A DNA stretch of 64,000 nt, taken from contig NZ_VTPX01000009.1 of the NCBI RefSeq assembly GCF_008298015.1, positions 1 to 64,000 of the forward strand. Direction: 5' to 3'. Shown in pieces: positions 8,936 through 21,070 of this stretch (its first letter is position 1; each line of letters begins with the position of its first letter). Made by a program: the position numbers and the translations under genes. The notes beneath the pieces are model-generated. The model was not told where the DNA came from. It did not search any database and saw nothing but the letters and a program-made list of their open reading frames with translations. The stretch comes from Salinicola corii. GTDB taxonomy: Bacteria; Pseudomonadota; Gammaproteobacteria; Pseudomonadales; Halomonadaceae.

Positions 8936-9949
8936 TCAGGACGCGTTCCAGCCTTCCTGTTCGAATACCTTCCTGACGGTCTCGGCGTTGTCATCGATGT
9001 ACTGCTCGAGCTCGTCACCGGTCAGGAACTGACTGGTCTGCACGGTCCGGGTGGTGTAATCCTTCCACTCGGGGGTCTCGCTGACCTTCCTGAGCAGCTC
9101 CTGGTAGTAGGTCACCGCCTCCTGGGGCGCGTCGGCCGGCAGCCAGACGGTCCGCGGCATGCGGTATTCGCTGATGTCGATACCCTGGGAGATGCAGGTG
9201 GGAATATCGCCCCAGCCCTTGTCTTCGTAGACAGGCTCGCCCTTGGGCAGCTGTTCCGGGCTGAACACGCACAGCGGCTTGACCATGCCGGCCTGCCACT
9301 GGCCGAGGTTCTCGTTGGGGTTGTTGACGTTGGCGTCGACGTGGCCGCCGGCCAGTTGCACCAGCGCCTGGCTACCGCCGTTGAAGGGCACGTAGCGGAA
9401 ATCGGCCCCGGTGGCCTCCTCGATCATGCTGACCAGCGTCTGGTCGGTGTCCTTGGACTGACTGCCGGCGAACTGCATCTTGCCGGGATTCTGCTTGGCG
9501 GCGTCGATGAAATCCTTGGCACTGGCATAGTCGGCATCGCCGTTCACCCAGATCAGGAATTCGTCCATGGCCATGGCCGCCACCGGTTGCAGATCCTCGG
9601 CGGCGTAGGGCATTTCGCCGACCTCGGGCAGCAGATACTCGTTGTTGGTGCCGAATGTCAGCTTGTAGGGGTCGTCCTTGGAAGAGGCCGAATAGACGTA
9701 GCCCTCGGCGCCGCTGCCACCGCCCTTGTTGGAGACGATGATCGACTCGTCCATCAGCTTGTGCTTGCCGATGATCGACTGCACGGTGCGTGCGAAGGTA
9801 TCGGTACCGCCACCGGCGCCCGAGGTCACCACGAATTCGACGGGGCGCTCCGGTTGCCAGGCCAGCGCGCTCCCGGAAACGGTGAGTGCGGCAAAGAACA
9901 GGGCCAGAGGCTTGAGCTGATGGGCGGAAAGGGGGTTGCGCTTGTACAT
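8936..9949 (-). CDS. tctC: Tripartite tricarboxylate transporter, periplasmic binding protein TctC (337 aa)
   Basis: A Bug/TctC-type solute-binding protein. It opens with a Sec signal peptide (basic MYKRN..., a hydrophobic core LALFFAALTVSGS, cleavage near ALA-W at ~30). The mature protein begins WQPERPVEFVVTSGAGGGTD, the usual start of the binding lobe. It captures an organic acid in the periplasm and delivers it to TctAB. The gene is flanked by hairpins on both sides, as expected if it is expressed more strongly than the permease subunits. The ligand is unknown; neighbours suggest a C4-type acid sugar or related hydroxy acid. Confidence 0.94.
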   Translation of the reverse strand: MYKRNPLSAHQLKPLALFFAALTVSGSALAWQPERPVEFVVTSGAGGGTDTFARTVQSIIGKHKLMDESIIVSNKGGGSGAEGYVYSASSKDDPYKLTFGTNNEYLLPEVGEMPYAAEDLQPVAAMAMDEFLIWVNGDADYASAKDFIDAAKQNPGKMQFAGSQSKDTDQTLVSMIEEATGADFRYVPFNGGSQALVQLAGGHVDANVNNPNENLGQWQAGMVKPLCVFSPEQLPKGEPVYEDKGWGDIPTCISQGIDISEYRMPRTVWLPADAPQEAVTYYQELLRKVSETPEWKDYTTRTVQTSQFLTGDELEQYIDDNAETVRKVFEQEGWNAS

Positions 9950-10033
9950 GGCGTTTCTCCTGTCGGTTCTCGCGTTGTTGCTCTTGTGGGTGTCGCTCGT
10001 GAACTGTCTCGTTGAATCGGACTTCCACTACCC

Positions 10034-10067
10034 TTCACCGCCACCGGCAACCGCCCGTGGCGGTGAA
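10034..10067 (-). other. Strong intercistronic hairpin between pdxA2 and tctC
   Basis: TTCACCGCCAC (10034-10044) is a perfect 11-bp inverted repeat of GTGGCGGTGAA (10057-10067) with a 12-nt loop. It starts 3 nt beyond the pdxA2 stop and has no U-tract on the minus strand. It therefore looks like a processing or stabilising element rather than a full terminator. Confidence 0.65.
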
Positions 10068-10070
10068 ACT

Positions 10071-11111
10071 TCAGACGCCCGCCCTGCGCGCCTGGCCCGC
10101 CATGCGTGAGGCAAGCAGCAGCGCCTGTCGGGAGGCACCGAGATCGGCGATGCCGCGGCCGACGATGTCGTAGGCCGTGCCGTGGGCCGGGGTGCAGACG
10201 GGAAACGGAAGGCCGCCGAGCATCGTCACGCCGCTATCGAACCCCATCATCTTCATCGCGATCTGACCCTGGTCGTGGTACATGGTCAGCACCGCGTGGA
10301 ACCCCTCCTTCACGGCGCGGAGGAAGACGGTGTCGGCGGGGAAGGGGCCTTCGACGTCCATCCCCTGCTCGCGCGCGCGCCGAATCGCCGGCTCGATGAT
10401 GTCGATCTCCTCCATGCCGAAGCTGCCGCCATCGCCGGCGTGGGGATTGAGACCGGCAACGGCGATACGCGGACGATCATGTCCGGCCTGCTGAAGGCAG
10501 CGGTGGGTCAGCGTCAGCTCGTCGACGATCGACTCCGGGCTCAGGGCCGCGGCGACGTCTTTCAGCGGGATGTGGGAAGTGACCCGTGCATTCCAGACCG
10601 ATTCGAGAATGTTGAACTCGCGGGCTTTGCCGTCGAAGCCGATGGCGTCCGCCACGAAGCGAATCTCGTCGTCGTAGCCGGGGTTGGCATAACGCATCGC
10701 CTTCTTGTTGAACGGGGTGAAACAGACCGCATCGACCTGACCCTCATTGGCCAGTGCGAGCGCGCGGCGGAAGTTGGCCGAGGCGAATTCACCGCCGGCC
10801 GGGGTGGCCTGGCCCTGATCGACCGCTTCCAGCGCCAGGTTGGCGAGATCGAGAAAGGCCGGTGCGGTCGCCAGACCCTCGAGCGGACTTCGTCCGTCGA
10901 CGACATGGAGTTGCGGCGAGAGGCCGGCGATGCGTGCGCCTTCGTCGAATATTCGACGATCGCCGATGATGACCAGGCGGACGGCCCGGTTGACGGTATC
11001 ATCCGCTGCCAGCTTGGCCGTCAACTCGGGGCTGATGCCGGCAGGATCGCCCATCGCCAGGGCGATGACCGGCAACTCGGAAGCGTCTTTGCGCGGGGGT
11101 GAAGGCGTCAT
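10071..11111 (-). CDS. pdxA2: PdxA2-like 4-phosphothreonate-type dehydrogenase (346 aa)
   Basis: PdxA-family metal- and NAD-dependent beta-decarboxylating dehydrogenase. The N-terminal LALAMGDPAGISPE-type motif (here IALAMGDPAGISPEL) and three metal-binding His contexts are present: VTSHIPLKDV, NPHAGDGGSFG and TMYHDQGQIAMK. GGLPFPVCTPAHGTAYDIVG lies near the C-terminus. Its operon position with a TTT transporter, an SAF oxidoreductase and a TIM-barrel enzyme points to the PdxA2 branch used in acid-sugar catabolism rather than pyridoxal synthesis. The start at 11111 has AGGAG 5 nt upstream; an earlier in-frame ATG at 11171 lies over the promoter and is rejected. Confidence 0.9.
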   Translation of the reverse strand: MTPSPPRKDASELPVIALAMGDPAGISPELTAKLAADDTVNRAVRLVIIGDRRIFDEGARIAGLSPQLHVVDGRSPLEGLATAPAFLDLANLALEAVDQGQATPAGGEFASANFRRALALANEGQVDAVCFTPFNKKAMRYANPGYDDEIRFVADAIGFDGKAREFNILESVWNARVTSHIPLKDVAAALSPESIVDELTLTHRCLQQAGHDRPRIAVAGLNPHAGDGGSFGMEEIDIIEPAIRRAREQGMDVEGPFPADTVFLRAVKEGFHAVLTMYHDQGQIAMKMMGFDSGVTMLGGLPFPVCTPAHGTAYDIVGRGIADLGASRQALLLASRMAGQARRAGV

Positions 11112-11171
11112 GATATCTCCTGGTCTCTGAGGCGGCGTGCTTGGTTGAGAGGAGATTGCGCTTAAAATCAA

Positions 11172-11186
11172 AATGTATACATTATA
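11172..11186 (-). promoter_or_regulatory. Operator palindrome overlapping the -10 box of the pdxA2-tct operon
   Basis: AATGTATACATT (11172-11183) is a perfect 12-bp palindrome of the TGTATACA type bound by FCD-class GntR regulators. On the minus strand TATAAT occupies 11186-11181, so the -10 box and the palindrome overlap by 3 bp. Transcription would start inside or next to the palindrome, about 65 nt before the pdxA2 ATG. No good -35 is seen at 17 bp. The arrangement fits repression by the divergently encoded GntR protein. Confidence 0.6.
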
Positions 11187-11337
11187 CGTTGGTATTGAGG
11201 CACAGCGGTCGGCAAGCGCAGTATGATGTCTTCACGCTGTTCGGGAGGGCCGTGTCTCATGGACGGCTCCCGGCTGAATCGAGACATTCCAGGCGCCTAT
11301 TTCGACGAACGAGTCCCCATACATGAAGAGATCAGCC

Positions 11338-12003
11338 ATGTCCGACACGACGTCGCCGCGATCCGCGATTGCCAGACACTCGCTGCACGATGCGATCACC
11401 AGCCATCTTCGTGACATGATCATCGAGGGCGAACTCGAACCTGGGAAGCGGATCTACGAGGGACCCCTTTGCGAACGGCTCGGTGTCTCGCGGACGCCGC
11501 TGCGAGAGGCGCTTCGCTATCTGGCCAGTGAAGGGCTGGTGGAGTTGACGCCGCAGCGCGGCGCCTCGGTTCGCCATTTTTCGGCAAAGGATATCCAGGA
11601 CATGCTGGTGCTGATTCGCACGCTCGAGGAGTTGGCGGGGCGCCTGGCTTGCAGCGAAGCGAGCGATGAGGAGGTCGCGGGGGTCCGGGAGCTTCATGAC
11701 GAAATGTTGGATTACTATCGCGATGGGAATCGGCTCGATTACTACAAGACGAATCAACGCATCCACTCTGCCATCGTTGCGCTGAGTCATAATGAATCGC
11801 TGATTCAGGTTCATGGTTCACTCCAGTCGAAACTCAAGCGGGTGCGATTCATCGGACACGAAGGCGAGGAGAAGTGGGCTGCGGCCGTTGCCGAACATGA
11901 ATCGATGATCGAATCCCTCGAGCGACGGGATGCGCCGGCCTTGGTGACGGCCTTGAGCGAACATCTCGAGCATGCCTGGGAACGGGTGCGTGACGTCGTT
12001 TAA
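11338..12003 (+). CDS. GntR-family regulator, FCD subfamily (221 aa)
   Basis: A winged HTH occupies residues ~10-75 (LHDAITSHLRDMIIEGELEPG, CERLGVSRTPLREALRYLASEGLVE, PQRGASVR). The FCD ligand-binding domain follows, with metal-type residues in NQRIHSAIVALSHN and AEHESMIESLERRD. It is divergent from pdxA2 with a TGTATACA palindrome between, so it is the likely substrate-responsive repressor of the acid-sugar operon. GAAGAG lies 7 nt before the ATG at 11338; an ATG at 11323 would add 5 residues and cannot be excluded. Confidence 0.92.
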   Translation: MSDTTSPRSAIARHSLHDAITSHLRDMIIEGELEPGKRIYEGPLCERLGVSRTPLREALRYLASEGLVELTPQRGASVRHFSAKDIQDMLVLIRTLEELAGRLACSEASDEEVAGVRELHDEMLDYYRDGNRLDYYKTNQRIHSAIVALSHNESLIQVHGSLQSKLKRVRFIGHEGEEKWAAAVAEHESMIESLERRDAPALVTALSEHLEHAWERVRDVV

Positions 12004-12159
12004 GGAAGCCTGCGCTGGCAGGATCGTCGCGGGAGAAAGGTGGAAGGTATATAGGATTGATTCTATTTTGTCGGCAATGTCTTACAAAAGATCGGATCAT
12101 CCGGTCTATTTTCTCCTCCTGGGAGAGGATAAGATAACGATTCGTTGTAGATCCTTGGT

Positions 12160-12186
12160 TCCCCGGCTCTGGCCGGGGATTTTTTT
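12160..12186 (+). terminator. Rho-independent terminator
   Basis: TCCCCGGC (12160-12167), the loop TCTG and GCCGGGGA (12172-12179) form an 8-bp perfect stem followed by seven T. It lies ~155 nt after gntR, so it ends either a long 3' UTR or a short independent transcript. Confidence 0.8.
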
Positions 12187-12500
12187 ATGGGTCTTATTTA
12201 TCTCTTCTCCGATCTTTTGCCTCTGCCGTCCTGCCACTTGTTTTTCCGATTGCCGCTCCGAGGCTTTGTTACAAATCGCTACCGAATACTTCCTTTTTAA
12301 TTAACTTGCATTGGTTCTAAAATTATCGCCGTGCGTGCAAGATCATGTGGCTGCTCAGTGGGATGCCATTCTATCGAATGGTGGCTGAACTTTGCAGTTG
12401 TTGGCCAGGGAAGACATCAGGGAGAGCCTCCAAGGAAGGCGGTGCCAGGGAAGCGGGATCAGGTATTCCCGACCGTCAGCTGGTTAGGCACAGGCTGATT
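12187..12500. other. Non-coding stretch upstream of tRNA-Gly
   Basis: No gene is convincing here. Its first half is AT-rich (for example around 12295-12330), as expected for a promoter region of the tRNA, but no confident -35/-10 pair can be assigned. Confidence 0.4.
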
Positions 12501-12535
12501 GAGAGCCCGGCCCTCCTAATGAGGGCCGGGCTCTC
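12501..12535. other. 15-bp perfect inverted repeat upstream of tRNA-Gly
   Basis: GAGAGCCCGGCCCTC (12501-12515) and its complement (12521-12535) flank the 5-nt loop CTAAT. The plus-strand continuation is TCTTGTC, so the U-tract is weak. It could be a terminator in either direction or a structure in the tRNA leader. It lies 80 nt before the tRNA. Confidence 0.6.
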
Positions 12536-12615
12536 TCTTGTCAGTGACAGAGATGGGTGGCAAGCAAATGCGGGCTTGCAAACGCCAAGTCTCCGGATTT
12601 ACGATCATGCCCGCG

Positions 12616-12689
12616 GCGGGTGTAGCTCAATGGTAGAGCAGAAGCTTCCCAAGCTTAAGACGAGGGTTCGATTCCCTTCACCCGCTCCA
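12616..12689 (+). tRNA. tRNA-Gly (anticodon CCC), 74 nt with encoded CCA
   Basis: The acceptor stem GCGGGTG pairs with CACCCGC. The D-arm is GCTC-AATGGTA-GAGC, the anticodon loop is TTCCCAA with anticodon CCC, and the T-arm is AGGGTTCGATTCCCT. Discriminator T and CCA follow. It closely resembles E. coli glyU. The anticodon stem has one G-A mismatch at its outer pair. The 3' 24 nt are repeated at 19897-19920, so the gene is an integration site whose function is kept after insertion. Confidence 0.96.
12666..12689 (+). repeat. attL: 3' end of tRNA-Gly, 24-bp direct repeat copy 1
   Basis: These 24 bases of the T-arm and acceptor end are repeated exactly at 19897-19920. Tyrosine integrases typically recombine in the 3' half of tRNA genes and leave such identical copies. 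Confidence 0.85.
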
Positions 12690-12802
12690 TTTTATTAATT
12701 AGACATGTCCAAAAATATCCTCGAATCGCCCTCCAGCCCGCACACCATCTAGCATCTCCAATTCAAATGCGTCCAGGCATTAACAGTGATAGCAATCACC
12801 CT

Positions 12803-12843
12803 CTTGTATGGCCTAATGTATGGCTAGGTTTCAGCCATACAAG
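12803..12843. repeat. Inverted repeat between attL and the integrase remnant
   Basis: CTTGTATGGC (12803-12812) is an exact inverted repeat of GCCATACAAG (12834-12843). A third TGTATGGC-like copy lies at 12817-12824. Iterated short sites between a tRNA attachment site and int are typical arm-type integrase or excisionase binding sites. Confidence 0.5.
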
Positions 12844-12852
12844 AAAGGTTAG

Positions 12853-13059
12853 ATGAAGCGCGATCAAATCAAGCGGCGCCCGCTGGCGGATACAGTACTC
12901 GTTAAACTTGAACCCGAGTCCCGAGAATATCGTGAAAGCTTCGGTCTCGACCAACTCTATTTCGTTGTCGCCCCCTCCGGCCGGAAGCGGTGGGAGCTCC
13001 GCTATTAAGAAGCCAGCTACCGGGCGCTGGGCCTGGATGGGTCTCGGCCGCTATCCCTA
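12853..13059 (+). pseudogene. Tyrosine integrase N-terminal remnant (Arm DNA-binding domain, frameshifted)
   Basis: From ATG 12853 the reading gives MKRDQIKRRPLADTVLVKLE, GLDQLYFVVAPSGRKRWELRY and then TAA at 13006. In the next frame the text continues KKPATGRWAWMGLGRYP. Together these form the N-terminal Arm DNA-binding (DUF4102) domain of island-type tyrosine integrases, broken by a frameshift at ~13004. The catalytic domain is absent: the sequence is cut at ~13060 by IS3 transposase sequence. It lies 164 bp from the tRNA, in the expected place and orientation. Confidence 0.8.
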
Positions 13060-13461
13060 CGGTCAGATAACGGGCTCGTTTTCAGCAGTCGCCACTACAC
13101 AGGCACGGTAAAGGCCTATGGCCTCACGCAGGAGTTCACGACGCCGTATACACCGGAACAGGACGGGCTCGTGGAGCGCTTCTTCCGTTCCTTGAAGGAG
13201 GAGTGCATTTGGCTCCATCGTTTCGAGTCGCTGGGCCAAGCCAGGATCGTGATCGATCGCTGGATTCGGTACTACAACGAAGAGCGGCCACATCAGTCTC
13301 TGGACTATGTGGCACCCCGAGCACATCTCAACATTAGCTGCGTAGGTTGTGCAGAAAACAGGGGGGCATTACACATCGACAGTACTGCTCGCGATGCGTT
13401 GATGCGCTACGCCCGCGCGAAGGTGGGCGTGCGGGGAAGTAACAGTGCCGTTCTGAAATAG
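13060..13461 (+). pseudogene. IS3-family transposase OrfB, C-terminal remnant
   Basis: The frame carries SDNGLVFSSRHY (with the second catalytic Asp of the DDE integrase core), YTPEQDGLVERFFRSLKEEC (with the final Glu) and WIRYYNEERPHQSLDY near the end. These are hallmarks of IS3 OrfB. Only the last ~100 codons survive, and the upstream two thirds and OrfA are missing. The final ~40 codons after RAHLNI are not transposase-like and probably read beyond the old IS end. An in-frame ATG at 13171 could open a shorter product, but it would be inactive. Confidence 0.82.
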
Positions 13462-13596
13462 AGAGGAGCGACCGGTGTGGGTGAGGCAACACCCGCGTCA
13501 GCCCCGACAAGCAGTCCATTTCTGCCAGCAGGGCAAGATTCTCCGCTCTACTCAGACTCAGTTAGAATTACGCGGTCCTTGTCCAGTAGGCCGCGA

Positions 13597-14493
13597 TCAA
13601 GCGACCTTGGCACTCGCTAGGCGCTGGAGGACACGCAATGGGACGTATCGGCTGGCGGAAATGCGAGACAAAGCCATCTCCGGAATTGTTATATCCATGC
13701 CGTAGAGGTTTAAATATTCATCATAATTATCAAAGCTGCTACGCGATACATAATCGATATAGGTTTCCGCAGGCACCCCTTCGGCTAAGATTAGTGAATG
13801 GTTTTCCGTCTCGATATGATAAACAGTATACCCTTTGCCGAGTTCTATCAGAGGGACCCATTCGATACTTGTGTCATTGACCAGTGCGGAAGCATTGAGC
13901 AGTAGGCCATCGACCATGAGCGCGTGGTTGGCGGTGACGAGTAGATCGCGGAGGGGAAGGCCATCACCTAGCGCGCCGGCACAGACCCTGATTGGCATCA
14001 GACGCTCCGGTGGATGGAATGCACAAACAACTTTTTGCCGGCCAACCCAGCGCACAGGAACGCTTTCTCCGTCTGCTGTCAAAATAGCATCACCTATACG
14101 CAGTTCTTCAACTCGTACGCTGCCCTGAGGTGTTGTGATTGCTGTGCCTTCCAAAAAGCATTCTGCTAGCGATGAATCCGTTGCACTGTCCAGATTTTCA
14201 GGTAGCGTTGACGAGTCAAAACCTGACGGGGTGACTACATACAGAGTGTAATCGTCAAGTGTGCCACCAGTATTCGCATCACTGAAAATAGGATAGTCCG
14301 TACCTTCAATATTGATCGTACCGACAAATGTTCCACTGCCATCAGCAAAGGAATCGCTTGTATCGCCTACAGTTTCCCCCGGAGAAAAAACCGTATCTCC
14401 TCCGTCATCAGTCACGATCTCGCCAGGTACGAAGTCAGAGAGCGCAAGATCTCCATCGAGATATAGGTGTGATGTGCCTTCGTAAGCAGCCAT
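13597..14493 (-). CDS. Hint-domain protein, probable secreted self-processing protein (298 aa)
   Basis: The N-terminal ~110 residues are acidic and Gly/Thr/Asp-rich (DLALSDFVPGEIVTDD, FADGSGTFVGTINIEG), like the beta-rich leaders of type I-secreted proteins. A Hint_2 (Hedgehog/intein) domain starts at Cys ~112 in AECFLEGTAITTPQG. It continues through VEELRIGDAILTADG, RWVGRQKV, LLVTANHALMVDG and VYHIETENHSLILAEGVPAETY. The Cys and the TxxH-type ANHALMV motif suggest autoprocessing, but the C-terminal partner Asn is not obvious. It is divergent from the DUF6916 gene. Base composition is more AT-rich than the flanks. Confidence 0.85.
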   Translation of the reverse strand: MAAYEGTSHLYLDGDLALSDFVPGEIVTDDGGDTVFSPGETVGDTSDSFADGSGTFVGTINIEGTDYPIFSDANTGGTLDDYTLYVVTPSGFDSSTLPENLDSATDSSLAECFLEGTAITTPQGSVRVEELRIGDAILTADGESVPVRWVGRQKVVCAFHPPERLMPIRVCAGALGDGLPLRDLLVTANHALMVDGLLLNASALVNDTSIEWVPLIELGKGYTVYHIETENHSLILAEGVPAETYIDYVSRSSFDNYDEYLNLYGMDITIPEMALSRISASRYVPLRVLQRLASAKVA

Positions 14494-14677
14494 TGCATTT
14501 AAGCCTCATTAGTTGTATTTAGGTATAGCTAGGTAAAATCTACATGCAGACGGTAACCTCGTCCATTCGACTTTTGCTCCTCGTAGGTAATCATGCTGCA
14601 AAGCAGCAGACTGTGAAGCCGAACATCCGTTACACCTTGAATTTATTGACGTTTTATTCAATCTGAAAGAGTCAATT

Positions 14678-15013
14678 ATGCCTCTCGATACTATCACAGC
14701 GACGTCAGATACCTTCTTACCCTATGTAGGCGACACGTTCATTACCGATAGCGCTCCGGAGAAGATCCTCTTAACGTTAGATAACGTCAAAATTTTCAAG
14801 AACTCAGATGTTCGTGATAGCAAGCTGGTCATTGATGGGATCAAGTACCTTCCACGGCAAGCCTTCGCCTTAACCTTTGTGGGACCGGTGAAACCAATCC
14901 TGGTCAGCGGGATGCTCAGCCTCTCGCATAAACAGATCGGCACCCTAGCACTTTTCATATCCCCATTTAGGAAGGACCAAGATTGCATTCTCTACGAGGT
15001 GGTCTTCAACTAA
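14678..15013 (+). CDS. DUF6916-like protein (111 aa)
   Basis: The C-terminal half follows the DUF6916 pattern: FALTFVGP, then a short strand ending in LSLSHKQIGTLALFISPF and the terminal YEVVFN, where relatives typically end YEAVFN. The N-terminal LDTITATSDTFLPYVGDTF matches the family's opening 'site of limits' strand. No function is known. The gene converges on the GNAT gene (8 bp apart) and is divergent from the Hint gene. I recall such proteins beside tail-collar (microcystin-dependent protein-like) genes, and the same company is kept here. Confidence 0.7.
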   Translation: MPLDTITATSDTFLPYVGDTFITDSAPEKILLTLDNVKIFKNSDVRDSKLVIDGIKYLPRQAFALTFVGPVKPILVSGMLSLSHKQIGTLALFISPFRKDQDCILYEVVFN

Positions 15014-15020
15014 GTACCAG

Positions 15021-15521
15021 TTAAATTTCGAGTGAGCATCTGTCGGGTTGCCACTCCAGTGACAGATGGTGCCCGTATAGACCGGTTGATACAAAATGGT
15101 GCCGTAAATAGAGATGGCGAGCAGGGCTATCCTTCTCGACTTTGAGGCGAACGGGAACTTTCCCTCCACTTGCTTCATTTAGAAGACTTCGGAGTATATC
15201 TGTTCCAATACCACGACGTTGATAGGTCGGCAATAGAGACATCTCGATGATTCTAAGGCACTCGTCTTCTTTATTCAAGTAAAGCCGCCCAATATCCACG
15301 TTATCGAGAACAATAATTCTACATACTGCGTTAGGAAAAAGTCGTTCATAATGTAGCTTTTGTGCCTCAAATTGCCTCTTCAAAAAATCTTTTTTTTCAT
15401 CCTCTGGCCAGACAGTGAGCGCAAACTCCCATTCTCTAGTGCTCGCATAGAGATTCATGAGAAATAGATTATCTGGCTGATGAATTATCCGAAAATATAT
15501 GCCTTTTCGACGAGCGAACAT
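15021..15521 (-). CDS. GNAT-family N-acetyltransferase (166 aa)
   Basis: The acetyl-CoA binding motif A is visible as LLPTYQRRGIGTDILRSLLNEA (Q/RxxGxG/A type), followed by the beta-5 region VPVRLKVEKDSPARHLYLRHHF. The first half includes VWPEDEKKDFLKRQFEAQKLHYE, a pattern I associate with GNATs placed next to tail-collar genes. It could acetylate an amine on a neighbouring product, but the substrate is unknown. It lies 136 nt downstream of the tail-collar gene on the same strand and is probably co-transcribed with it. It is AT-rich relative to the host. Confidence 0.85.
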   Translation of the reverse strand: MFARRKGIYFRIIHQPDNLFLMNLYASTREWEFALTVWPEDEKKDFLKRQFEAQKLHYERLFPNAVCRIIVLDNVDIGRLYLNKEDECLRIIEMSLLPTYQRRGIGTDILRSLLNEASGGKVPVRLKVEKDSPARHLYLRHHFVSTGLYGHHLSLEWQPDRCSLEI

Positions 15522-15657
15522 TAAGGGAACTCCGTTGTTTTTATAATGTAACAGATGCGATTAGAGTAGCCATTCCCTAAGTAGGCTTAGAGAGATGAGT
15601 GTTGCAGGTATCTTGCTGCTATAATACATGCCAATGTGTGGAAAGTGTCGTCTAAGA

Positions 15658-16185
15658 TCATTCTCGTGATGGGAATATCCCTTGTAACGCGATTTCATAA
15701 TTAAGGACAAGATAAGGCGGCATGGAATTGAATGCTTCTCCATCACCGGTCTCATTGATGGTAATTGCTTCAGAGGACATCTGTCTATTAGGGGAAACAC
15801 TCGGTTGTGTATAAATTTGGGCTAAACCTAATAGCATCCCGGAGGGGGTTTTTACGGTCGCGCTTCCTGTTTCGGCGTTGAGGGTGGCGGTGTGATTATG
15901 AGGCGGAAGGTTTGACGCACTCAGCGTAGTTGTCTCAGAGCCTCCGCTACTCCCAATTTCGCGGCGTGACCGGTTTCCCCCCTCTCCCTGTCCGATGGCC
16001 ATCCGCCCTGAAAGATCGGGAAGAGCAAAAGTGGTTCTCCCATCGCCCCCGTAGATCGTGCCAAGCAGAGAAAACAATGCAGAATTCTGCGCTATAGGCA
16101 TCAATTGACCTTGGCATAGAGCAAAACCGCGTTGCGCGAAGGGATATCCAACTAGGCATATTTGACCAAGGAACGGCTCCGACAT
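15658..16185 (-). CDS. Phage tail collar-domain protein, microcystin-dependent protein-like (175 aa)
   Basis: The N-terminus has the tail-collar signature: FLGQICLVGYPFAQRGFALC, then GQLMPIAQNSALFSLLGTIYGGDGRTTFALPDLSGRM. A second half holds NLPPHNHTATLN and the C-terminal NSMPPYLVLNYEIAL. Such proteins are related to short tail-fibre tips and occur widely outside prophages in small clusters. No other phage structural gene is present, so this is not a prophage remnant in the usual sense. AAGGGG precedes the ATG. Confidence 0.9.
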   Translation of the reverse strand: MSEPFLGQICLVGYPFAQRGFALCQGQLMPIAQNSALFSLLGTIYGGDGRTTFALPDLSGRMAIGQGEGGNRSRREIGSSGGSETTTLSASNLPPHNHTATLNAETGSATVKTPSGMLLGLAQIYTQPSVSPNRQMSSEAITINETGDGEAFNSMPPYLVLNYEIALQGIFPSRE

Positions 16186-17239
16186 TATGACTTACCCCTT
16201 GAGTTTATTGGGTTTTTAGTATGCTGCTAACATTATTTTATGCCTTGAAGGATATAAAAAAAATACGACAATAGCATTACTTTTTCATGATCATTTTATA
16301 GATCGAACGATGTGGAGTAAAAGCTGAATTATGAGGCCCGGATCCCGCTCACGACTGATTTTATGGGAAACAACCAATGTCATCAGTAAGCGCTTGCAGG
16401 TCTGCCTATAGGGTAGTTTCTACTCATGACATCGTCCCTGCGTCTTGGCTTCGACTTACCACCATCTCTGCGGCTTAAGACCCTCGAGGCCGGCGTCGAA
16501 TGTTGTGATGGATACCAGCAGGTGCCGTATGTACAGATTGTGCGGCCGCGCTGTCTGGTTGATATATCGATCTGGAGCAAGAGCCCTGCGTTTATCGACC
16601 GCGACTCGATTCGCGGCGTCACACAGCATATCGGCTCCAATCTCGTCGAGCACTGGCCAGTGAGCATGTCGGTCAAAGCATGGCAACGATGATAACGCTG
16701 AGTTGATCACTCCGCTGCAGGCAACTGCTGACACATCGCGTCGGTAAATTTACACGCAAGTTTCGCGGCGCGATGTCGATATCCTTTATGTTTTAGGCGA
16801 AGAGAAGCCATTTAAGACATCCCCGCGATGAAGAAGTTTTCCCGGCTCATGAGGTCGGGTTTTTTATAAATATCAAGTGGCCCTCATCGCTTCTATATTC
16901 ACACTGACTTCGTGTCAGCAACTACGCTGAGCCCGCCTTCTCGGGTATTGAGAGGCGAGGTGAGGATGCCTTGTATGCTCGCGCGCGCGGATGCCATCGG
17001 CTGATAGCAGTCGGTGCTATTTCATTGTCCAATCTGGGTCGAATCATCCGTGTCCTAGACCCTACCAGCGAGGTGTGGTGTCTAGGAATATCAAGGGATT
17101 CGGCTGCAGGAAGCGGCATCACAGGGATGTATGGCAGGACGCCGTGATGTTAAGGCAAAGATGGCAGCGGTTTGAGGCCACTCTAACGTGTTTCTTTTCC
17201 GCTGCGCTGTGTTTTGGGCTCTGCCACTTCAAGATTGTA
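16186..17239. other. 1-kb gap in the island without a convincing gene
   Basis: Short overlapping frames occur on both strands (for example 16426-16692 and 16456-16734), but none shows a domain I can defend. They may be decayed transposon sequence. A terminator is seen at 16841-16866. Confidence 0.45.
16841..16866 (+). terminator. Rho-independent terminator
   Basis: CCCGGCT and GGTCGGG pair (two G-U wobbles) around a 5-nt loop and are followed by six T. It reads on the plus strand, although no intact plus-strand gene lies upstream. This suggests that a gene was lost or that a short RNA is made. Confidence 0.6.
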
Positions 17240-18175
17240 TCAATCTTTATCGATGGCGTTCGGTACAGGGAACCCATTGGATTTAAGCAACGCGTATGTA
17301 GCCTTGGTTCGTGCTCTCATCGTATTGGGTAGTTCCAAGTCTAGATTTAAAGCGAAGTAAACAGGCCCTCCGGATTCCACCGGGCGTTCAATCCATCCAA
17401 CAAACCAGCCAGTTCGCTCCGTAGCGTTCGGTAGAAGACCAGGTGTATCGGAGCGTAGGAACCCTTCATCATCAATAGGGAGCATCGCGCCCGTCTTGCC
17501 GTAGATGATGCTTCCATCCTTTGCCTGACCGCTTTGGATCATGCGAATCGTTCGTGTCATGCTGGATGCATCAGCGTTCAACTGTCCATTATGTAACCGT
17601 TGAAGGAACGCGACCTGCTCTTCTGCACTTATTTTAAGAGGGCCCCGGAGCCAGAAATGTCGTAGGTCGTCGGCCGATCCGACATTGGCATTGCCGTACT
17701 CCAGCTTCTCGACCCATTCTTGCTCGCGTGGCTGGCCGATCTTGTCTGCGATTTCCTGGAAGACCCATACGGTTGATGCCGACACTGCGTCGGCCATGCT
17801 AGTATTCGTATTCCAGGCGTCCACACCACGGCCCCGGCCGTCCCATTGGAATTTCTGATTTTCGTCATCTACGGCTCCCACCTCCAAGGCGATAAGCGAG
17901 TGGGGGATTTTGTAAGTAGAGGCTGGGATAAAACGTTCTCTTGAGCGCGGCGCATTACACACCAGTTTCGTTTCACTCGAAGGCACGTAGATTACGATTG
18001 TGGATCGATCTCTATCTGGCATCAGCTCGCAACCGCTAGCTTCCTGTACCATTTCTTTTGCGACGGGGTTTGCGTCGCGCGGCTGCTCGATAGCACAGGC
18101 CGATACTATCGGCATGCAGATTGCGAGTAGCCCGATCCACTTTTTAAAGCTGAAGGAGATGACTTCAGGTTTCAT
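17240..18175 (-). CDS. Class D (OXA-type) beta-lactamase, predicted lipoprotein (311 aa)
   Basis: The serine beta-lactamase motifs are in order: S-x-x-K in PASTYKIPHSLIAL, S-x-V as STV in SASTVWVFQEIADKIG, Y-G-N in LEYGNANVGS, and K-T-G in IIYGKTGAM. Class D landmarks FQWDG, FWLRGPLKISAEEQVAFL and GWFVGWIE also match. The enzyme would acylate and hydrolyse beta-lactams in the periplasm. The N-terminus (KKWIGLLAICMPIVSAC) has a lipobox VSAC, implying an outer- or inner-membrane lipoprotein. Several in-frame ATGs (18175, 18187, 18193, 18202) precede it with no clear ribosome site; 18175 is the shortest that keeps the signal. It lies inside the island. Confidence 0.9.
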   Translation of the reverse strand: MKPEVISFSFKKWIGLLAICMPIVSACAIEQPRDANPVAKEMVQEASGCELMPDRDRSTIVIYVPSSETKLVCNAPRSRERFIPASTYKIPHSLIALEVGAVDDENQKFQWDGRGRGVDAWNTNTSMADAVSASTVWVFQEIADKIGQPREQEWVEKLEYGNANVGSADDLRHFWLRGPLKISAEEQVAFLQRLHNGQLNADASSMTRTIRMIQSGQAKDGSIIYGKTGAMLPIDDEGFLRSDTPGLLPNATERTGWFVGWIERPVESGGPVYFALNLDLELPNTMRARTKATYALLKSNGFPVPNAIDKD

Positions 18176-18317
18176 ATCGAGTTCCATTTTCATTAGGATC
18201 ATCGAGCGCTTGGTGCTGGTGCTAATCGTGCCATAGGGTGGACTCCATAACATTTTTTCTGATTACGAGTCTCCGGAGTATACCGCTCCATCCCAGTGCC
18301 TTCTTCTGAGAAACTTT

Positions 18318-18533
18318 TCAGACTCTCACCGTCGGCAGCTCATCCCACCTGGTGGTGTAGCGCTGCGTTAGTAAGTCCGCCTTGAGCTTCCACGCCGCTT
18401 TTCCTCTCGTCCCGCCCAATCTCACTGTGCCCCGTCCCATCCTGCGGTTCAGCTCATCCATGGCGGCACTGGCTTTCTCCAATCGCTCTACGTCACTCTC
18501 CGGTGAATCAAAAAAGAGCCACGGAGAGGCAAA
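18318..18533 (-). pseudogene. umuC: umuC 3' remnant (DNA polymerase V subunit C-terminus)
   Basis: A 71-codon frame bounded upstream by an in-frame TGA reads LFFDSPESDVERLEKASAAM, then DELNRRMGRGTVRLGG and finally QRYTTRWDELPTVRV. This is the conserved C-terminal tail of UmuC-type Y-family polymerases (GRGTVRLG and YTTRWDELP are characteristic). The polymerase core and any umuD partner are missing. It indicates that the island, or a plasmid ancestor, once carried a mutagenic repair operon. Confidence 0.85.
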
Positions 18534-18627
18534 TCAACTCTTGCCACTTTCGTCTAGCGCATGACGATAGCCAGTCGCGCCGTCAGAAATTTATGATGTA
18601 TGACAAATTCCCGAGGTCGAGTCGACG

Positions 18628-19638
18628 ATGACCCATGATGTTTCTCTCTGCCTTAAAGAGGCAGAGGCGCTGAGTCTACGCATTCTGGATAAAGCGGGAT
18701 TCAGCCCAGCCCATGCGAATGCCATCACGCGCAGCGTCGTTGCAGCCCAGCGCGATGAGTGCCATTCCCACGGGCTCTATCGTCTGATCAATTGTGTGGA
18801 TGCCGCGAGAAAGGGCGGCCTGGATCCCCAGGCCGAACCGGTGGTTCATGACCAAGCGCCGGGCGTCGTCAAGATCGACGCTCGTGGCGGATGCTCGCTA
18901 CTATCGTTCGAGACCGGCAAGGCGCACCTGAAAGAGAAAGCGGAGCGCAACGGTGTAGCGGTGCTAGGCATCAATCATTGCTTTCACTTCTCCGCCCTTT
19001 GGTCCGAGGTGGAAGCGCTTGCTGAACTGGGGCTAGCCGCGCTGGCAATGAACCCAACCCACGCCTTTGTCGCGCCGACCGGCGGTACAAAGCCTCTGCT
19101 CGGCACTAACCCCTTTGCCTTTGCCTGGCCACGGCCGGGCCGGTTGCCCTACGTTTTCGACTTTGCCACGAGTGTCGTCGCACGCGGGGAGATAGAGCTG
19201 CATCGACGCGCCGGCAACTCGATCCCGGAAGGGTGGGCGCTGAACACAGAGGGTGACCCGACCACCGATCCGGCCGCGGCCCTTGAGGGAGCCATGCTCC
19301 CTTTCGGCGGCCACAAGGGGGCAGCGCTTTCCACGATGATTGAGCTACTTGCCGGACCGCTGATCGGTGACGCACTGAGCCATGAGACTTCACCTGCCAA
19401 TGATGCCGGCACCGGCAGACCACAGCATGGTGAGATCGTCATCGCGTTCTCGCCAGAGACGTTCCTCGGTGCACAGAGCGAGTCTCAACTCACCCATGCT
19501 GAAGCGCTGTTCGATCGGATTCTGGAGCAGGGCGCACGGTTACCCTCCCAGCGTCGTTTCGAAGCGCGTGAGCGGAGTCTCGAGCACGGCGTGTCGATTC
19601 CGACGCCACTATACGAGGAGTTGGAAAGGCTGGCTTGA
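18628..19638 (+). CDS. Ldh/malate dehydrogenase-family oxidoreductase, DpkA-like (336 aa)
   Basis: NAD(P)H-dependent oxidoreductase of the Ldh_2 (YbiC/DpkA) fold, unrelated to classical lactate dehydrogenases. Family motifs include RDECHSHGLYRL near residue 45, NHCFHFSALWSEVEALAELG, and PLLGTNPFAFAWPR followed by FDFATSVVARGEIEL. FGGHKGAALSTMIELLAG lies toward the C-terminus. Close families reduce delta1-piperideine/pyrroline-2-carboxylate or 2-oxo acids; the FHFSALW variant resembles the imine reductases. It is the last gene before attR. Its GC content is like the host's, so it may have joined the island separately. Confidence 0.88.
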   Translation: MTHDVSLCLKEAEALSLRILDKAGFSPAHANAITRSVVAAQRDECHSHGLYRLINCVDAARKGGLDPQAEPVVHDQAPGVVKIDARGGCSLLSFETGKAHLKEKAERNGVAVLGINHCFHFSALWSEVEALAELGLAALAMNPTHAFVAPTGGTKPLLGTNPFAFAWPRPGRLPYVFDFATSVVARGEIELHRRAGNSIPEGWALNTEGDPTTDPAAALEGAMLPFGGHKGAALSTMIELLAGPLIGDALSHETSPANDAGTGRPQHGEIVIAFSPETFLGAQSESQLTHAEALFDRILEQGARLPSQRRFEARERSLEHGVSIPTPLYEELERLA

Positions 19639-19896
19639 GTGCATGGGGCAAAAATGGGGCAAACCGAGCGCCAAACTATGCCGTTTTGGCGCTGTCAGAG
19701 CTTATAGACTGTATGGGCCGAGGCCAGGTATGGTGCGGCTTCGGTAGTTTTGATTTTGGAAAGATATACAGCGCCCAGCATCATCGGCGTATGCGGGCGA
19801 AGCAACGCAGGGGAGGAGGCTAGCGCGTGATATCGTGTATGGGGAGATGTATGTACCGGTGAGAAAATAGATAGGATGCAAGTAATAGCAGGGCTT
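19639..19896. other. Right end of the island, no gene seen
   Basis: About 260 bp between the Ldh-family stop and attR. Short frames are present but none is recognisable. Confidence 0.4.
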
Positions 19897-19920
19897 GTTC
19901 GATTCCCTTCACCCGCTCCA
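19897..19920 (+). repeat. attR: 24-bp direct repeat of the tRNA-Gly 3' end, copy 2
   Basis: Identical over 24 bases to 12666-12689, ending in CCCGCTCCA. The sequence immediately 5' (GGGCTT) does not continue the tRNA, so this is an attachment-site copy and not a second tRNA gene. Confidence 0.88.
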
Positions 19921-19982
19921 GACAGTCCTGGCTGTCACGGGTCTCTTTCCTCCAACCCGGGCGGGTTCGTCCACTCCCTACG

Positions 19983-20137
19983 CTTTGTCTGAAAAATGCC
20001 TGCGCTCACTCATACGGCGTTAAAAATCGACTGGAGCGCCAGCCCCATTTACCCCGCGTAAACTGGTACGCCAGCCCGGTCCGTTTTCGGCGATTTTTGC
20101 CTTGTCTGGCTATCGCTCGTCGATTTTTTAGACAGAG
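19983..20137. repeat. ~155-bp imperfect inverted-repeat element downstream of the island
   Basis: The outer arms CTTTGTCTGAAAAAT (19983-19997) and ATTTTTTAGACAGAG (20123-20137) are inverted repeats with 13 of 15 matching bases. Inner arms AAAAATCG (20022-20029) and CGATTTTT (20091-20098) also pair. The whole can fold into a long hairpin. It ends 2 bp before the stop codon of the minus-strand gene at 20139 and may serve as its terminator. It may also be a dispersed non-autonomous element. Confidence 0.5.
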
Positions 20138-20138
20138 C

Positions 20139-20543
20139 TTAATTGACCAATCGCCGCTTCATCAGGCTCTTCATCACCTGCTCTGCCGTTTTTCGGGGTT
20201 GTGAGCCGCGTCGAGAGAGACTGTCCTCTGGCTTGCCGGCCTGGGTCGTTGCTTTTGAGGACCTTGAGGGGCAATCACTTTCCCTTTCCTCGAAGCTTCC
20301 CTCTGTTGGCTCGATCTGGGGGTGAAGTTCCCTGGGTGAGTGAAAGTCGTGCTGCCATTCGAAACGCGCGTCTTTGAGTCGCTGGCGGTGATGGTAGCGA
20401 TTCAGCCATCTTGCTTCTTCAATCGCAGCAGGGCGGTTAAAATAGACGTTCATGCATGCCCCCTCCCGATGAAAGTCGGCGACCACGAAGTGTTCCATTG
20501 GGGTTTTGGGGTTGACCGTTCGAACGAAATAGCGGTTTGACAT
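20139..20543 (-). CDS. Hypothetical protein (134 aa)
   Basis: The first ~75 residues look folded and conserved in style (MSNRYFVRTVNPKTPMEHFV, PAAIEEARWLNRYHHRQRLK). The tail is rich in Ser, Arg, Glu and Lys and probably disordered. GGGAGC lies upstream of the ATG at 20543. No domain is recognised. It is the first native gene outside the island. Confidence 0.6.
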   Translation of the reverse strand: MSNRYFVRTVNPKTPMEHFVVADFHREGACMNVYFNRPAAIEEARWLNRYHHRQRLKDARFEWQHDFHSPRELHPQIEPTEGSFEERESDCPSRSSKATTQAGKPEDSLSRRGSQPRKTAEQVMKSLMKRRLVN

Positions 20544-20920
20544 GCGTTTGCTCCCATCATCGCCAGTGTTTGATCTCGTTTTGTATCAAGGAGTGCGCAC
20601 TGAGCTTTCTCTTAGATGCACGTCGAATATTATCTTTCCTGTCGTCGTGATGTGAAGAAAGAGTGATACAGCTAGATGCTTGGTTAATTTTATAACCTTA
20701 TTTAAAGTATGTTGTCTTCCGAACACACTGTGGGACGTCAAGATACTGGAGGATAAGCGCTTTATCGGCACGCGTTACCGTGGTTGGGCGAAGAGAGTAA
20801 AACACTCAGAGCCTTGGCGAGGAATCATTGGTGCCAACGATGTCAAAGGGCGGCGGGGCTTCCGGGAAACGATCCACCGCTTCAGTAATGTAGCAGCCAG
20901 TTCTCAGGCGGGCCACACAC
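20544..20920. other. Intergenic gap, no gene seen
   Basis: About 380 bp, AT-rich in its first part (20580-20720). Overlapping short frames on both strands have no recognisable domain. Confidence 0.4.
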
Positions 20921-21070
20921 CTAGCGAGACTTGGGGCCCGCTTCAGGAGTCGAATTCCCCTTGCGACGCTGGTATTTGGCGTATGCCTGCTTGGCCGTGT
21001 GCTTGGCTTTTTCACGGTTCTCCGGCTTTCTCAGCCAGTTGGCGATGGCGGCGCCGATCATCTTTTTCAT
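20921..21070 (-). CDS. Small basic hypothetical protein (49 aa)
   Basis: From the ATG at 21070 the product is a short basic, helix-prone protein (KKMIGAAIANWLRKPENREK, then AKQAYAKYQRRKG). The upstream part of the same open frame has low-complexity Ser/Arg-rich sequence typical of an untranslated shadow, so the short form is preferred. It could be longer by ~20 residues (LEHHTISDDELNTTTDWDD also looks protein-like). Function is unknown. Confidence 0.4.
   Translation of the reverse strand: MKKMIGAAIANWLRKPENREKAKHTAKQAYAKYQRRKGNSTPEAGPKSR

Follow-up and report, generated by a model that had tools for sequence, protein, structure and literature searches.

A one-collar form of a recurring tail-collar, GNAT and DUF6916 gene cassette on a tRNA-Gly island of Salinicola corii

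Background

Why should a gene for a phage tail-collar protein stand on a small bacterial island next to genes for a GNAT acetyltransferase, a DUF6916 protein and a Hint-domain protein? The question is raised by positions 13597 to 16185 of a 64,000-nucleotide stretch of Salinicola corii (RefSeq assembly GCF_008298015.1, contig NZ_VTPX01000009.1, positions 1 to 64,000 of the forward strand), which is referred to here as the window. A first-pass annotation of this DNA had proposed that the four genes form an undescribed cassette and that the product is a secreted, modified surface or contact-dependent protein. The four genes were found where that annotation had placed them, and all four proteins score above the Pfam cut-offs:

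13597..14493, minus strand, Hint_2 protein (Pfam Hint_2, 1.5e-35), with a passenger at residues 1-111, the Hint part from Cys112 and a conserved C-terminal tail
14678..15013, plus strand, DUF6916 protein (Pfam, 1.9e-17), with no visible signal peptide; core cassette member
15021..15521, minus strand, GNAT acetyltransferase of a cassette-associated subfamily (Pfam Acetyltransf_1, 7e-8); core member
15658..16185, minus strand, tail-collar protein, single copy (Pfam Collar, 1.4e-23; Gp10_C, 1.4e-6); core member

In the GNAT, both Acetyltransf_1 and Acetyltransf_7 exceed their cut-offs, as do both the Collar domain and the Gp10_C tip domain in the collar protein. Because the DUF6916 gene is oriented oppositely to the other three, the four genes are not one operon; the same opposed layout is found again in relatives. 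The explanation that we favour, and to which we give about an even chance, is that the window carries a reduced version, gained by horizontal transfer, of a widespread cassette whose products form a receptor-binding tip of the phage-tip type, either on the cell surface or secreted.

Results and discussion

Recurrence of the cassette

The collar, GNAT and DUF6916 genes are a recurring cassette, found across phyla and outside prophages. Searches for DUF6916 matched 8 of 97 relatives, 43 of the 398 phylum genomes and, in the family of genome G405, 7 of 248. Among the relatives and phylum genomes, 48 genomes other than that of the window have a DUF6916 match, and 39 of these each supplied one locus of up to 20 kb (G120, G124, G142, G149, G191, G219, G233, G257 and G261 were omitted). 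The loci were scored with collar, GNAT and DUF6916 profiles derived from the same 39 loci, and genes were called with a simple longest-frame rule that gives some wrong starts. In 35 of the 39 loci, a collar and a GNAT are both encoded no further than 5 kb from DUF6916; one locus has a collar alone and three have neither partner. Random stretches from the same genomes contained a collar in 0/40 cases, DUF6916 in 0/40, Hint in 1/40 and a GNAT match (E ≤ 1e-3) in 8/40, the last showing that the GNAT profile is less specific than the other two. When loci were instead anchored on the collar, the best 80 named loci had both partners within 5 kb in 25 cases, GNAT only in 11 and DUF6916 only in 3. DUF6916 is thus almost always accompanied by a collar and a GNAT, while collars frequently stand alone. 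The statement of the first-pass annotation that these three kinds of gene recur together is borne out by this search.

The idea that all four genes form a fixed unit was rejected: Hint occurs in only 1/39 DUF6916-anchored loci (L065) and in one of the best 80 collar-anchored loci (L162). It is not a core gene, and it marks a subtype made up of the window and four Rhodobacteraceae-type loci.

Searches of open-licence papers yielded no account of the cassette, and the name DUF6916 occurred nowhere in the literature searched. Within that compass, no described system that was found or tested contains the cassette, while each of its parts has a known fold. A search for DUF6916 on plasmids gave zero matches.

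Several further features of these loci were observed. Asparagine-synthase-like genes adjoin the cassette in 7 of 68 loci (L053, L055, L057, L066, L081, L217 and L235), and a sulfotransferase-like family does so likewise in seven; together, they are reminiscent of peptide-modifying gene clusters. Many Bacteroidota loci contain collars alone, and at a Hymenobacter locus (L188), where neither GNAT nor DUF6916 was detected by the profiles, the three collars match C2, C1 and C3 of the lineages described below.

Three collar lineages and a fusion

The commonest form of the cassette has three collar genes, which belong to three old lineages and are normally present as one of each. The number of collars is exactly three in 18 of the 39 loci anchored on DUF6916, and likewise in 20 of the 25 named collar-anchored loci that have both partners. 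A tree was built from 132 collars of 44 loci, each locus having three adjacent collars plus GNAT or DUF6916, with the collars labelled C1, C2 and C3 by gene order. These loci come from Pseudomonadota (13), Acidobacteriota (5), Actinomycetota (3), Chloroflexota (2), Planctomycetota (1) and Bacillota (1), with 18 from further genomes of the window's phylum and 1 unplaced. On this tree the gene-order labels need 13 changes, as compared with 53-73 (mean 63.3) in 200 within-locus shuffles. Part of the 13 changes arises because C1 and C2 are swapped in six loci (L059, L063, L174, L214, L232 and L234, judged by eye). The collars of the Planctomycetota locus fail to sort into the three lineages.

In one locus, L081, a single frame of 559 amino acids (aa) comprises a collar (1-186), a second collar (188-371) and a GNAT (396-555), and the third collar lies immediately upstream. 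This single instance is a joining of the last three genes in their usual order.

The window copy and its island

The window carries a reduced, one-collar form of this cassette. Its collar is closest to lineage C3 (207 bits, with the next lineage 9 bits behind); C3 is also the top match for most other single collars, and given this shared preference it may be just the most general profile. The window's genome has one DUF6916, while the nearest relatives of the locus, L065 and L162, have two each.

The first-pass annotation had placed the genes on an island, and the borders of that island could be defined:

12616..12689, plus strand, tRNA-Gly (ccc), the island insertion site (ARAGORN)
12666..12689, plus strand, left attachment (att)-like repeat, 24 nt, an exact match to the tRNA-Gly 3' end
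12853..13008, plus strand, 51-codon frame similar to the N-terminal part of a tyrosine integrase (Pfam match to Arm-DNA-bind_3 under the cut-off, E 0.02)
13171..13461, plus strand, C-terminal fragment of an insertion sequence (IS) transposase (rve_3, 2.4e-17; rve_2, 1.9e-10)
19897..19920, plus strand, right att-like repeat and right border of the island, an exact copy of the tRNA-Gly 3' end

The two repeats are read as att-like because they are exact copies of the tRNA end, as att sites would show. The chance expectation for such a repeat pair is 0.00 (100 shuffles), and ARAGORN found no second tRNA gene at the right copy. Between them, the island (12690-19920, 7.2 kb) has a GC (guanine plus cytosine) content of 0.519 and the cassette itself 0.474, as compared with 0.632 and 0.641 in the flanks. 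The 51-codon frame is likely the remnant of the island's integrase, judging from its weak profile match and its position beside the tRNA gene. Stretches resembling the IS transposase fragment occur elsewhere in the genome.

A gene resembling those of class D beta-lactamases (17240-18253; bla_class_D_main, 2.5e-61, 207 bits, under the 250-bit cut-off) is likewise on the island. An Ldh_2 malate/lactate dehydrogenase gene (18628-19638) lies inside the right att-like repeat and is apparently part of the island.

An integrase worn down to 51 codons and an adjoining IS fragment raise the possibility that the window copy is a decaying, functionless relic, which has lost the second DUF6916 of L065 and L162 and the two further collars of the fuller form. 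Against this, all four frames are open and keep the residues examined, namely Cys112, Thr187 and His190 of Hint and the HxH motif of the collar, and one-collar cassettes are also present in other loci. We consider decay a rather improbable explanation of this copy.

Relation to phage tails, structure and export signals

The collar resembles phage tips. Profile matches include a phage long tail fibre (8kec, 1.4e-10) and the T4 short tail fibre (1ocy, 1.2e-5), and the cassette collars share with the tip of T4 gp12 and the C-terminal domain of gp10 the Collar and Gp10_C domains and an HxH pair. In phage fibres, this pair binds metal. The motif is invariant across 26 aligned C3-type collars and is present in 42/44 C1, 42/44 C2 and 40/44 C3 collars of the tree loci. 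In contrast to the phage tips, the cassette collars are about 175 aa long, lack a shaft, occur in the common form as three lineages side by side, and are encoded with GNAT and DUF6916 instead of tail genes.

Structure prediction, which the first-pass annotation had proposed for all four proteins, succeeded for one of the two models obtained and failed for the other. The AlphaFold2 model of the window DUF6916 is confident (mean predicted local distance difference test, pLDDT, 89.3; predicted template modelling score, pTM, 0.80) and has a small beta-barrel-like fold with an N-terminal helix. For the collar monomer, with an equal number of sequences, the model is poor (pLDDT 51.6, pTM 0.24); this failure is weak evidence for an intertwined trimer, with which it would fit. 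Profile matches of the cassette GNAT in the PDB are solved GNATs, among them protein N-terminal acetyltransferases, and the collars frequently start with MSEP (15/44 C1, 14/44 C2 and 14/44 C3).

A twin-arginine translocation (Tat)-like leader was flagged by a simple rule on 17 of 82 DUF6916 frames, of which 2 probably have wrong starts. In 11 loci, one leader-flagged DUF6916 is paired with one that is unflagged. Because the flagged and unflagged proteins stand together, we propose that DUF6916 may act as a Tat escort of folded collars.

Surface-protein neighbours

Many cassettes adjoin a gene for a giant surface-like protein. At 20 of 39 loci such a frame is situated no more than 7 kb from DUF6916, as compared with 3 of 40 controls (Fisher p 1.7e-5), under a rule of length and composition that was defined after a first look at the frames. 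When the neighbours of 68 DUF6916 loci were clustered, the giants fell into three separate groups present in 14, 9 and 8 loci. Their Pfam types include DUF4347 with Big_12, He_PIG with Autotransporter, RTX with FG-GAP, IPTL-CTERM, Cadherin with Calx-beta, and MBG with Big_3_5; the giant of L061 had no match in a Pfam scan. A scan of 117 of the 127 eligible flanking frames found HlyD_3 to be the commonest Pfam family (12 proteins), with Peptidase_M50 (7) and OEP (4) also present, and HlyD-like genes occur in 10/39 loci vs 2/40 controls. The giant type I-secreted adhesins and autotransporters that adjoin many cassettes, some with HlyD and TolC-type genes, share none of their domains with the cassette proteins, and the window has no such neighbour. 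The surface role suggested in the first-pass annotation gains indirect support from the excess of giant surface-like neighbours.

Beside one cassette is a gene for a protein of about 700 aa (L069:7087-9183) that matches both Peptidase_M50 and HlyD, an unusual pairing near DUF4347 giants. Relatives of this protein adjoin the cassettes of L043, L045, L046 and L047.

The exoproteome of Ruegeria pomeroyi is reported to include a collar-domain protein (PMC4949626). RhiB of Rhizobium leguminosarum is, like the cassette collars, a bacterial collar protein whose gene belongs to a small set native to the cell, rhiABC, and a possible role in plant interaction is given for it (PMC13133039); the available text of that paper mentions no GNAT or DUF6916 partner, and RhiB is compared here by description. 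RhiA, which is encoded with it, is described as cytoplasmic (PMC2275737).

The location of RhiA, together with the lack of any signal peptide seen by eye on the GNATs or collars, would suit a cassette whose products act inside the cell as a binding or enzyme complex, the giant neighbours just marking variable genome regions. This is unlikely in view of the collar protein in the exoproteome, the Tat-like leaders on the second DUF6916 of 11 loci and the excess of giant surface-like frames.

Phage, injection-system and defence tests

That the locus is a prophage tail module was rejected on the evidence of the window, phage records, viral contigs and flanking families alike. As the first-pass annotation had stated, there are no other phage genes nearby: among the nine proteins of 11323-20543 scanned with Pfam, the collar is the sole member of a phage structural family. 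A tblastn search with the window DUF6916 gave 0 matches in 50,697 phage records. In 79 collar-bearing viral contigs, DUF6916 was found in none and GNAT in 2 (L087 and L091), and no structural or tail families were present among the first 25 of the 44 PHROGs families listed for the scanned flanking frames. The cassette is thus neither rare as a combination nor confined to complete prophage tail modules, the two outcomes that would have spoken against it in the first-pass annotation.

The two contigs from the viral collection, L087 and L091, carry a GNAT adjoining C1, C2 and C3 collars in that order. They may be misfiled bacterial DNA or an instance of the cassette on a mobile element.

Alternatively, the collars might serve as the fibre tips of a tailocin or contractile injection system whose genes lie in another part of the genome, with the cassette supplying and modifying the receptor-binding part. 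Collar folds are those of phage tips, and a contractile sheath (PF04984) was found in 18 of 49 cassette genomes, including one match on another contig of the window's genome, as compared with 7 of a further 49 genomes drawn from the genome sample without matching for size or lineage. In Acaryochloris marina, the genes AM1_3684-3690 resemble the cassette by annotation alone: three neighbouring "phage tail collar" genes, a putative acetyltransferase and conserved hypotheticals share a light response, which also includes phage sheath and baseplate-like genes; in the available text they are tabulated without comment as a unit (PMC11633204). This explanation is kept alive by the sheath excess and by the joint light response. 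It is nonetheless quite unlikely, as 31 of the 49 cassette genomes have no sheath match and the PHROGs families listed for the flanking frames contained no tail families. Highly improbable is an anti-phage role, in which the collars would be secreted decoys or part of a defence system: the cassette sits on a small tRNA-adjoining island and the collar tips of phages bind bacterial surfaces, but none of the four proteins matched a known defence system in PADLOC (E ≤ 0.01) and, in two lists of neighbours, the second covering 25 of 94 families, the recurring ones are related to surface and secretion and not to defence.

The Hint subtype

Five loci have a Hint gene no more than about 2.5 kb from DUF6916, namely L065 (with one on each side), L162 (a Roseicyclus metagenome-assembled genome), L321, L322 and the window. 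None was found near DUF6916 at L190 or L323-L326. The order common to L065, L162 and L321 is collar, DUF6916, GNAT, opposed DUF6916 and Hint; the DUF6916 between collar and GNAT bears a twin-arginine leader in L065 and L162, and it is this DUF6916 that the window lacks. Among the matches listed, the window proteins are nearest to those of this subtype: the GNAT and DUF6916 have 59% and 55% identity, respectively, to those of L065, and the collar has 61% identity to that of L162; identity of the window Hint to its relatives of the subtype is 42-44%. Hint of the window type is found in 0/17 congeners, with a second copy on another contig of the window's genome. We read these resemblances as the mark of a probable transfer of the cassette between classes. 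No direct donor was assigned, because the GC content of the window cassette (0.474) is low as compared with the 0.577-0.673 of L065, L162 and L321.

The second Hint_2 gene of the window's genome lies at L337:9425-10663, some kb from epimerase-like and sugar-metabolism-looking frames (judged by eye).

The Hint part of these proteins is conserved and its passenger is not. In an alignment of 45 of 51 collected proteins (six were dropped as their motif did not match), Cys112 is present in 45/45, Thr187 in 43/45 and His190 in 45/45, and all three are kept in the window protein. Mean identity is 62% for the Hint part and 19% for the passenger, which falls into 15 clusters by BLAST; some passengers are Lamin Tail Domains. 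Hint_2 and the bacterial intein-like or Hedgehog-type Hint domains are alike in the conserved first Cys and TxxH, and the window-type Hint has a weak profile match to the bacterial intein-like domain 2lwy (E 0.0031). In splicing inteins, a C-terminal Asn is followed by a nucleophile and the extein. Unlike these, window-type Hint proteins showed no such Asn-nucleophile pair in an alignment of four Hint relatives, and it is the passenger that varies beside a conserved Hint. They differ from the bacterial intein-like and Hedgehog-type domains in being free-standing genes of about 300 aa, which are arrayed in some genomes.

The extent of this repertoire is considerable, with 21 to 41 Hint_2 domains in each of six genomes of the family of G405 and up to 13 full-size Hint genes in about 15 kb of L327. 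Tandem arrays of free-standing Hint_2 genes (L327:2626-17864, and also L328, L329, L330, L331 and L333) were observed in Rhodobacteraceae-type genomes.

A proposed role for the cassette

If the cassette does build a surface or secreted receptor-binding tip, its products might work together as follows. The collars would assemble as trimers; in the commonest form each lineage would contribute one subunit, and in window-like forms a single kind of subunit would be repeated. Modification of the collars by the cassette GNAT would take place in the cytoplasm, with the N-termini as the most likely site, and the DUF6916 proteins would escort the folded collar complex. In the many loci with a second, Tat-signalled DUF6916, this protein could carry the folded complex out of the cytoplasm, and the tip would then do its work either on the cell surface or in the medium, in many cases next to or on a giant surface protein encoded nearby. 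In the window subtype, Hint_2 would occupy the place of the giant protein and might release or attach its small passenger via a thioester.

Several results weigh against a surface or secreted tip. Under the rule fixed post hoc, 19 of the 39 cassettes have no giant neighbour, and no giant protein lies beside the window cassette, where the largest frame overlapping 9000-21000 is 366 aa. The HlyD excess consists of 10 loci that are partly close relatives, several being from relatives in the window's genus or order. In 41 of the best 80 collar-anchored loci, neither GNAT nor DUF6916 was found by the profiles, and collars therefore often act without either. By eye the collars have no signal peptide, a fold search with DUF6916 gave no significant match, and the A. 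marina light response extends to sheath and baseplate-like genes. Local supports in the collar tree are mostly low (8 of 129 inner branches are starred) and some of the 44 loci are closely related, which inflates the clustering; the tree is therefore taken as strong sorting and not as an exact history.

A bolder version of the proposed tip can be drawn, which is tentative and somewhat improbable when taken whole. In what would be a new kind of surface machine of bacteria, three distinct subunits, which have stayed separate lineages in at least six named phyla, would form a heterotrimeric tip with one of each. This tip, capped by the GNAT, would be exported by a paired cytosolic and Tat-signalled DUF6916 and docked on giant adhesins that change from locus to locus. 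In the window subtype, Hint would take the place of the giant and covalently couple a passenger that varies; in Rhodobacteraceae, the supply would be a large set of Hint genes with swapped passengers.

Conclusions

If the favoured explanation is true, several bacterial phyla have converted the working end of a phage tail into a dedicated tip for themselves, with several modified subunits, encoded by a compact and mobile cassette. Its three conserved collars would replace the vague annotation "phage tail protein" by a precise prediction, that of a heterotrimer, and DUF6916 gains a context, the first found for it in the literature searched. For the study of protein splicing, the tandem genes in which highly divergent passengers precede a conserved autoprocessing domain would also be of interest.

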